In this document: positions 18,481 to 18,791 of the stretch, in pieces
Layout of the letters: each line of letters begins with the position of its first letter
Numbering within the stretch: position 1 is the stretch's first letter
Origin: an uncultured Bacteroidales bacterium
GTDB lineage: Bacteria; Bacteroidota; Bacteroidia; Bacteroidales; UBA932
NCBI GenBank assembly: GCA_944325505.1
Contig: CALVAJ010000016.1
Span: 1 to 44,538 of the forward strand
Length of the DNA: 44,538 nucleotides
Reading direction: 5' to 3'
Program-made: the position numbers and the translations under genes
Notes under the pieces: model-generated
What the model was told of the DNA's origin: nothing
What the model saw: only the letters and a program-made list of their open reading frames with translations
Database searches by the model: none

Positions 18481-18510
18481 AAAAAACAGACTGACCTTCA
18501 GGTCAGTCTG
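18481..18510 (-). terminator. Rho-independent terminator of rpsU
   Basis: A perfect 10-bp stem (18487-18496 with 18501-18510) with a four-base loop is followed on the minus strand by at least six T (A-run at 18481-18486). It starts 25 bases after the rpsU stop. With the rpsU promoter it makes rpsU a single-gene transcript. It also separates rpsU from the convergent metallo-hydrolase. Confidence 0.92.
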
Positions 18511-18535
18511 CCTATGTTTCTTTTCAGGAGATAGA

Positions 18536-18730
18536 TTACTGCTCGTCCATCAACTGCATATGCTGAACGTAGATGGCTTTCTTGATTTCCTCTCTCCTTT
18601 TTACGGACGGCTTTACGAAAGCTTTCCTTGCACGGAGTTCACGGATAGCGCCGGTCTTCTCGAATTTCCTCTTGAATTTCTTGAGTGCCTTCTCTATGTT
18701 CTCGCCTTCTTTTACAGGTACTATAATCAT
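18536..18730 (-). CDS. rpsU: 30S ribosomal protein bS21
   Basis: Ribosomal protein bS21, a small basic protein of the 30S platform close to the 3' end of 16S rRNA. The 64-aa sequence is highly charged, with IEKALKKFKRKFEKTG and LRARKAFVKPSVKRREEIKK typical of the family. In Bacteroidota, published ribosome work on Flavobacterium (recalled from memory) shows bS21 helping to sequester the anti-SD through a tyrosine at position 54. Tyr54 is present here, in IYVQHM. The gene has its own promoter, an unusually perfect SD and a dedicated terminator, which suggests it is regulated independently and possibly by its own level. Confidence 0.96.
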   Translation of the reverse strand: MIIVPVKEGENIEKALKKFKRKFEKTGAIRELRARKAFVKPSVKRREEIKKAIYVQHMQLMDEQ

Positions 18731-18736
18731 CGCTTA

Positions 18737-18749
18737 ATCACCTCCTTTT
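18737..18749 (-). promoter_or_regulatory. perfect extended Shine-Dalgarno of rpsU
   Basis: The minus strand reads AAAAGGAGGTGAT, complementary over its whole core to the universal 16S 3' end (ATCACCTCCTTT). It lies about 6-10 bases from the rpsU ATG. It is the longest anti-SD match seen in this window, where most genes have none. Confidence 0.85.
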
Positions 18750-18761
18750 GTTTTGCGGGTG

Positions 18762-18791
18762 CAAAGGTAGTCAAATTATTTGATATTCAAA
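18762..18791 (-). promoter_or_regulatory. promoter of rpsU
   Basis: Minus-strand TTTG (18791-18788), 18 bases, then TACCTTTG (18769-18762). This fits TAnnTTTG with a nearly standard spacer. The -33 end lies within the last codons of the sirtuin gene. Confidence 0.75.

Follow-up and report, generated by a model that had tools for sequence, protein, structure and literature searches.

An extended Shine–Dalgarno sequence before rpsU in a family of gut Bacteroidales and its probable role in bS21 autoregulation

The rpsU gene of an uncultured Bacteroidales bacterium carries an extended Shine–Dalgarno (SD) sequence for which autoregulation by the gene product, bS21, as described in Flavobacterium johnsoniae, is the best explanation and a probable one. 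The gene lies on the minus strand (18536..18730) of the window, by which we mean the whole 44,538-nucleotide stretch of DNA analysed, and its reading frame encodes a 64-residue protein that matches PF01165 (6.5e-19) and has a tyrosine at position 54. The SD sequence, AAAAGGAGGTG, occupies positions 18739..18749 on the same strand. The nearest bS21 proteins, some of them 100% identical, come from Candidatus Cryptobacteroides and from uncultured Bacteroidales that are mostly metagenome-assembled according to their titles, and the window organism is a Candidatus Cryptobacteroides-like Bacteroidales. Its GTDB family is called f1 here, and we take it to be UBA932.

In F. johnsoniae the 3′ tail of 16S rRNA is held by bS21, bS18 and bS6 (PMC9976891). 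Reporters, depletion and purified ribosomes were used to show the mechanism: cells that lose bS21 translate rpsU more, as they do a reporter with a strong SD (AGGAGGU), and initiation on rpsU mRNA is faster when ribosomes lack bS21 or the C-terminal part of it (McNutt et al. 2023, PMC9976891). The same source reports that ribosomes of the class do not recognise SDs, that the SDs of other ribosomal genes are weaker than, and distinct from, that of rpsU and, citing Jha et al. 2021, that an SD occurs on rpsR in Bacteroidales.

On the minus strand the rpsU leader of the window reads CAAAACAAAAGGAGGTGATTAAGCG-ATG, with the ATG at 18730 and AAAAGGAGGTG 8 nt before it. Bacteroidetes promoters follow a consensus of the TTTG/TAnnTTTG type. 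The sequence at 18762..18791 (minus strand) fits this type as a putative promoter, with TTTG at 18791-18788, 18 nt and then TACCTTTG at 18769-18762. This putative promoter runs into the end of sir2, and many relatives likewise show a TA(C/T)CTTTGC-like element. Past rpsU, a 13-pair stem followed by a T run (18484..18513, minus strand; fold z -4.48) forms an intrinsic terminator. Of the dedicated promoter and terminator noted in an earlier, sequence-only reading of the window, the terminator is confirmed and the promoter fits the type. With a putative promoter upstream and a strong intrinsic terminator downstream, rpsU is probably transcribed alone, on a transcript whose leader would be about 26 nt long and mostly SD. 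The stretch from the leader into rpsU has no special fold (z 0.6).

A search of the source assembly (2.36 Mb, 54 contigs) found no 16S rRNA gene, and we judged pairing on relatives. All 18 same-genus genomes that were read (18/18) have the tail AACACCTCCTTTTT, ending AACACCTCCTTTTTGG, and this tail is complementary to the rpsU leader: AAAAGGAGGTG pairs with it over 11 contiguous nucleotides, after which comes an A–A mismatch. The mismatched A is the first base of the AT at 18738-18737 that follows AAAAGGAGGTG, and the T could pair. The sequence-only reading had called AAAAGGAGGTGAT a perfect SD on the assumption that the 16S end contains ATCACCTCC, and had named a tail without ATCACCTCCTTT as grounds for giving up its proposal. 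ATCACCTCCTTT is not the tail of the window's genus and the same-genus tails differ from ATCACCTCC, which takes away the literal claim, yet the 11-nt pairing core persists. Across the family, a 16S-end search that allowed mismatches matched in 118/299 genomes, though a few of the matches have the look of chance hits. A stricter pattern requiring GTGCGG matched in 0/50 named genomes, at least partly because most of the family reads GTGTGG. Most f1 16S ends read have GGTGTGGCTGGAACACC (L082-L111, L377-L396) at the place where GGTGCGG stands in a few members, and two g14 genomes read AATACC. Several leaders of genus g11 are AAGGAGGTGTT, which is fully complementary to the tail.

We scored anti-SD pairing across 1.98 of the 2.36 Mb (84%) of the source genome, in which simple hexamer calling gave 1,524 genes and 1,510 scored starts. 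Energies are from RNAduplex, not the free_scan of McNutt and colleagues, the starts are self-called, and ribosomal protein genes in the remaining 16% fall outside the scan. With the family tail, rpsU ranks first of the 1,510 starts at -17.3 kcal/mol, ahead of the next at -15.4, and it has the longest contiguous match (11 nt, against 10 for the runner-up and then 8). It is thereby below -13 kcal/mol and the strongest of the ribosomal protein genes scanned. The sequence-only reading had described the rpsU match as the longest in the window and asked for such a ranking, to which many equally strong genes would have been fatal; rpsU leads the 34 scored window genes, and no start in the scanned genome reaches its energy with the family tail. 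With an alternative assumed tail ending UUUCU, rpsU is second (-16.5), after a G-run that precedes a doubtful start. The word AAGGAGGTG occurs 14 times on both strands of the 1.98 Mb, and the rpsU copy alone falls 0–30 nt before a called start. The genome is otherwise SD-poor at -9 or below, where 74/1,510 starts match as against 68 in a mock window. The statement that most genes have no SD therefore holds broadly, though strong matches outnumber those of the mock window (26 versus 16 at -11; 9 versus 2 at -13). Within the window, a gene for an Rnf/Nqr membrane subunit (2066-2689) has AAGGAGGACTAATCA upstream of its start, at -11.1.

SD matches are over-represented in the main ribosomal protein operons, where 8/27 genes reach -9 versus 74/1,510 overall (p 2.4e-5). 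These 27 genes include four that encode non-ribosomal proteins by sequence reading (rpoA, secY, map and infA), two of the eight matches are map and infA, and some of the operon starts are probably misplaced by the gene caller. Since other operon genes bear such SDs, of moderate strength, rpsU is not the sole candidate target. The enrichment, together with the excess at -13, would also suit an SD that merely makes rpsU highly translated on f1 ribosomes able to use SDs constitutively. That account is unlikely in our judgement, given that a genome-wide excess is absent at -9 and that ribosomes of the class are reported to be blind to SDs (PMC9976891).

Conservation of the leader was assessed in the window and the 80 loci nearest to it by protein (n = 81). 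AAGG(A/G)GGTG is present in 71/81 leaders, and 71/81 score below -13; in leader L042 the word is interrupted by a T, and the remaining nine have short words or none. The core of the block served as the alignment anchor, and in one column the search word admitted only A (60 leaders) or G (11 leaders), either of which can pair with U, so that the invariance of the core is no proof of conservation. The two bases that precede the anchor are A in 71/71 and 69/71 leaders, and the common block is therefore AAAAGG(A/G)GGTG, the 11 pairing nucleotides. Of 30 columns scored on either side of it, 22 carry at most 0.6 bit. The last column of GGTG has 2.0 bit and the next three have 0.9, 1.5 and 1.0 bit, indicating partial conservation beyond the pairing. 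The base directly after GGTG, where a T would pair, is A in 52/71 leaders, which argues that selection has not maximised complementarity. The spacing from GGTG to the start is 7–11 nt, with a mode of 8. All 81 compared bS21 sequences (81/81), that of the window included, have Tyr54, in agreement with the conservation claimed for it earlier.

In f1 the rpsU SD is widespread. In a survey of the order for AAGGRGG 4–14 nt before an rpsU-like start, 10/393 genomes match, comprising 6/6 from f1 and 4/387 from outside it. bS21 was found in 221/247 genomes of the order. A survey of the family itself gave at least 205/299 matching genomes, and among the matches listed the window's genus has 59/62. These counts are lower bounds because the pattern is blind to MIIVQ and GTG starts, and one match, in G347, may be chance. 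We examined 30 of the 94 misses, hand-picked to cover genera. Of these, 27/30 have bS21, and 21/27 carry the extended SD before MIIVQ or GTG starts, including all three that come from the window's genus. The six bS21-bearing misses without an SD are four g9 genomes, one g24 genome and G131. The bS21 of G131 (L363), which is without an SD, is unlike that of G069 from the same genus and possibly reflects bin contamination. An apparent GTG start follows the extended SD in 5/27 leaders (L360, L365, L371, L373 and L375), which belong to g11 and g17; such starts are as would be expected if the SD sets the rpsU start.

A quick-method tree of bS6, bS18 and bL9 (55 rows, 348 columns) places g9 and g24 together as sister to the other 27 f1 rows (SH-aLRT 95), although the alignment is short and many of the deeper forks are open. 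By pattern or by reading, 26 of those 27 rows have the rpsU SD; G076 could be settled by neither. This small tree suggests that the rpsU SD was gained once in f1, after g9 and g24 had split off. Tyr54 is found in nearly all Bacteroidales bS21 sequences read, with or without an SD, and is thus no predictor of one.

Outside f1, strong rpsU SDs are rare. Of the four pattern matches there, the one in G726 is a bS21 gene and the other three have no detected bS21 frame. We read 84 rpsU leaders outside f1, of which four fall below -13 when scored with an assumed tail ending UUUCU. Two of the four belong to genus g195 of family f41 (-21.7). The other two are interrupted matches (-13.1 and -13.2), and the latter falls to -9.5 once tail and window are shortened; a further leader (L231) reaches -13.0 with a tail ending UUUUU. 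A wider survey of f41 matched 39/150 genomes, largely with words unlike rpsU. In g195, AAGGAGGTG stands before an rpsU-like start in 9/13 genomes, with bS21 confirmed in 9/9; four g234 genomes in the same survey also have AAGGAGGTG before an rpsU-like start, in these cases only a candidate rpsU. The g195 rpsU SD is AAGGAGGTGT (L113, L210, L469-L471 and L473-L476), and a tRNA-Leu (CAA) lies within about 20–300 nt upstream of rpsU at 8/9 of the g195 loci scanned. Relatives of bS21 are also carried by 15 viral contigs (L477-L491), with a tyrosine at position 54 in 10 and an extended SD in none (strongest -7.8). If the feedback loop operates in the hosts, phage bS21 with such leaders would escape it.

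The rpsR gene, which encodes bS18, also has an SD in most f1 members. Its leader reaches -7 in 27 of the 30 f1 genomes read, and the SD is weaker than that of rpsU, at about -8 to -13. In the source genome it is AAGGAGTAGG (-8.2 or -7.8, depending on the tail); three congeners have stronger versions (-11.1 to -11.8). The three leaders that fall short of -7 belong to g8 and g20, both of which have the rpsU SD; the two g9 genomes and one g24 genome that were read show the reverse, an SD on rpsR without one on rpsU. A replacement of the rpsR SD by the rpsU SD is ruled out as a description of the family, as most f1 members read have both. Outside f1 we compared the two leaders in 48 genome pairs, of which 45 were scored; G391, G465 and G398 were excluded because a gene was not parsed. 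At -6 (n = 45), both SDs occur in 1 genome, rpsU alone in 6, rpsR alone in 30 and neither in 8 (Fisher p 0.002, a test that ignores kinship at a cut-off picked after seeing the data, with too few independent pairs on the tree). Stricter cut-offs give p values of 0.008 (-7), about 0.1 (-8) and 0.09 (-9). These counts are suggestive of a tilt towards exclusion between the two SDs outside f1. A tentative reading, and one we hold to be rather less likely than its alternatives, is that in Bacteroidales the sensing of an incomplete 30S platform moves between bS18 and bS21, such that lineages tend to hold either the rpsR or the rpsU SD, and that f1 went through a stage with two sensors after which g8 and g20 lost the rpsR SD. 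Were it true, f1 would offer a natural series of a ribosomal feedback loop changing hands.

The sequence-only reading had also put forward rpmA and a hydrolase gene as secondary targets at low bS21. rpmA (bL27, PF01016; 22582..22842, plus strand) has GAGGAGGAATT upstream (-12.1) and is a possible secondary SD gene. The metallo-beta-lactamase-fold hydrolase gene (PF12706/PF00753; 17637..18431, plus strand) has AGGAGGAG upstream, a doubtful SD that scores -11.0 with the family tail and -12.6 with another. The role of either gene as a bS21 target is weakly supported. Among the 30 f1 genomes read, the rpmA site is at -9 or below in 8, from genera g1, g6 and g12, with GGAGG in 4/4 genomes of the window's genus and in 1/1 of g6, and AAAAGGAG in 3/3 of g12. 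The hydrolase site overlaps the final codons of the preceding gene and could be scored in 3/80 loci, with values of -10.8 to -14.1. At the energies of the rpmA and hydrolase sites, matches are fairly common in mock windows. By analogy with the AGGAGGU reporter that responded in F. johnsoniae (PMC9976891), rpmA or the hydrolase gene could respond as well, but nothing here singles either out.

The same reporter bears on a broader possibility, that ribosomes deficient in bS21 or bS18 prefer all SD-bearing ribosomal protein mRNAs (rpsU, rpsR, rplE, rplB, rpmD, rplI and rpmA), with rpsU the strongest. Moderate SDs do stand on the listed genes in the source genome and the rpsR SD is retained in most f1 members read, but the rpmA SD is not kept across f1 (8/30 at -9), and in the analysis of McNutt et al. 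ribosomal genes other than rpsU have weaker SDs, distinct from the one on rpsU, even though the AGGAGGU reporter responded (PMC9976891). We give this wider regulon only a small chance. A last alternative, that a dedicated regulator binds the block as DNA or RNA and the likeness to an SD is accidental, is highly improbable: the block is short and conserved, adjoins the promoter and is followed by a few partly conserved bases beyond the pairing, but it is made up of the bases that complement the 16S tail, keeps the spacing of an SD from the start (7–11 nt, mode 8), and an Rfam scan of the window returned no family at the gathering score.

Autoregulation of the F. johnsoniae type is supported by the retention of the pairing word across most of f1 examined. 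The bS21, bS18 and bS6 homologues align over nearly their full length with those of F. johnsoniae (7jil), and the alignment includes the C-terminal bS21 helix with Tyr54. In complete 30S subunits these three proteins would keep the 16S 3′ tail off the mRNA, and SDs would be ignored. In subunits without bS21 the free tail would pair with some 11 nt of the rpsU leader, and bS21 synthesis would presumably continue until subunits are complete again. The earlier proposal that the same feedback operates here accordingly stands as the best explanation of the rpsU SD, with the regulatory response itself predicted from sequence. The loop would be present in f1 except in the early-branching g9 and g24, and was probably gained once, in addition to an rpsR SD that is common in Bacteroidales. 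With a probable single gain, relatives in g9 and g24 that have no rpsU SD, a second occurrence in g195 and lineages that have one or both of the rpsU and rpsR signals, the evolution of a specialised-ribosome feedback becomes testable, and a large gut Bacteroidales family known largely from metagenome bins gains a clear case of an rpsU SD.

The type of mechanism is already known, and f1 is an exception to a published absence. The 2023 survey by McNutt and colleagues covered complete genomes only and states that no Bacteroidales satisfies its rpsU criteria (PMC9976891); this base of complete genomes probably omitted f1. The accessible portions of PMC8710568 and PMC10783764 yielded no Bacteroidales case, and a full-text literature search that excluded bioRxiv and most subscription journals returned no paper describing an SD on rpsU in this order. 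Members of f1 resemble F. johnsoniae in having an extended rpsU SD that is the strongest in the genome (here, a sampled one), an SD-poor background, Tyr54 and a canonical CCUCC tail, but differ in belonging to an order with no qualifying member in that survey and in that most of those read also have an rpsR SD (PMC9976891). They share this rpsR SD with the Bacteroidales pattern attributed to Jha et al. 2021, but the signal is weaker (about -8 to -13), and those g8 and g20 genomes that were read, all with the rpsU SD, have lost it.
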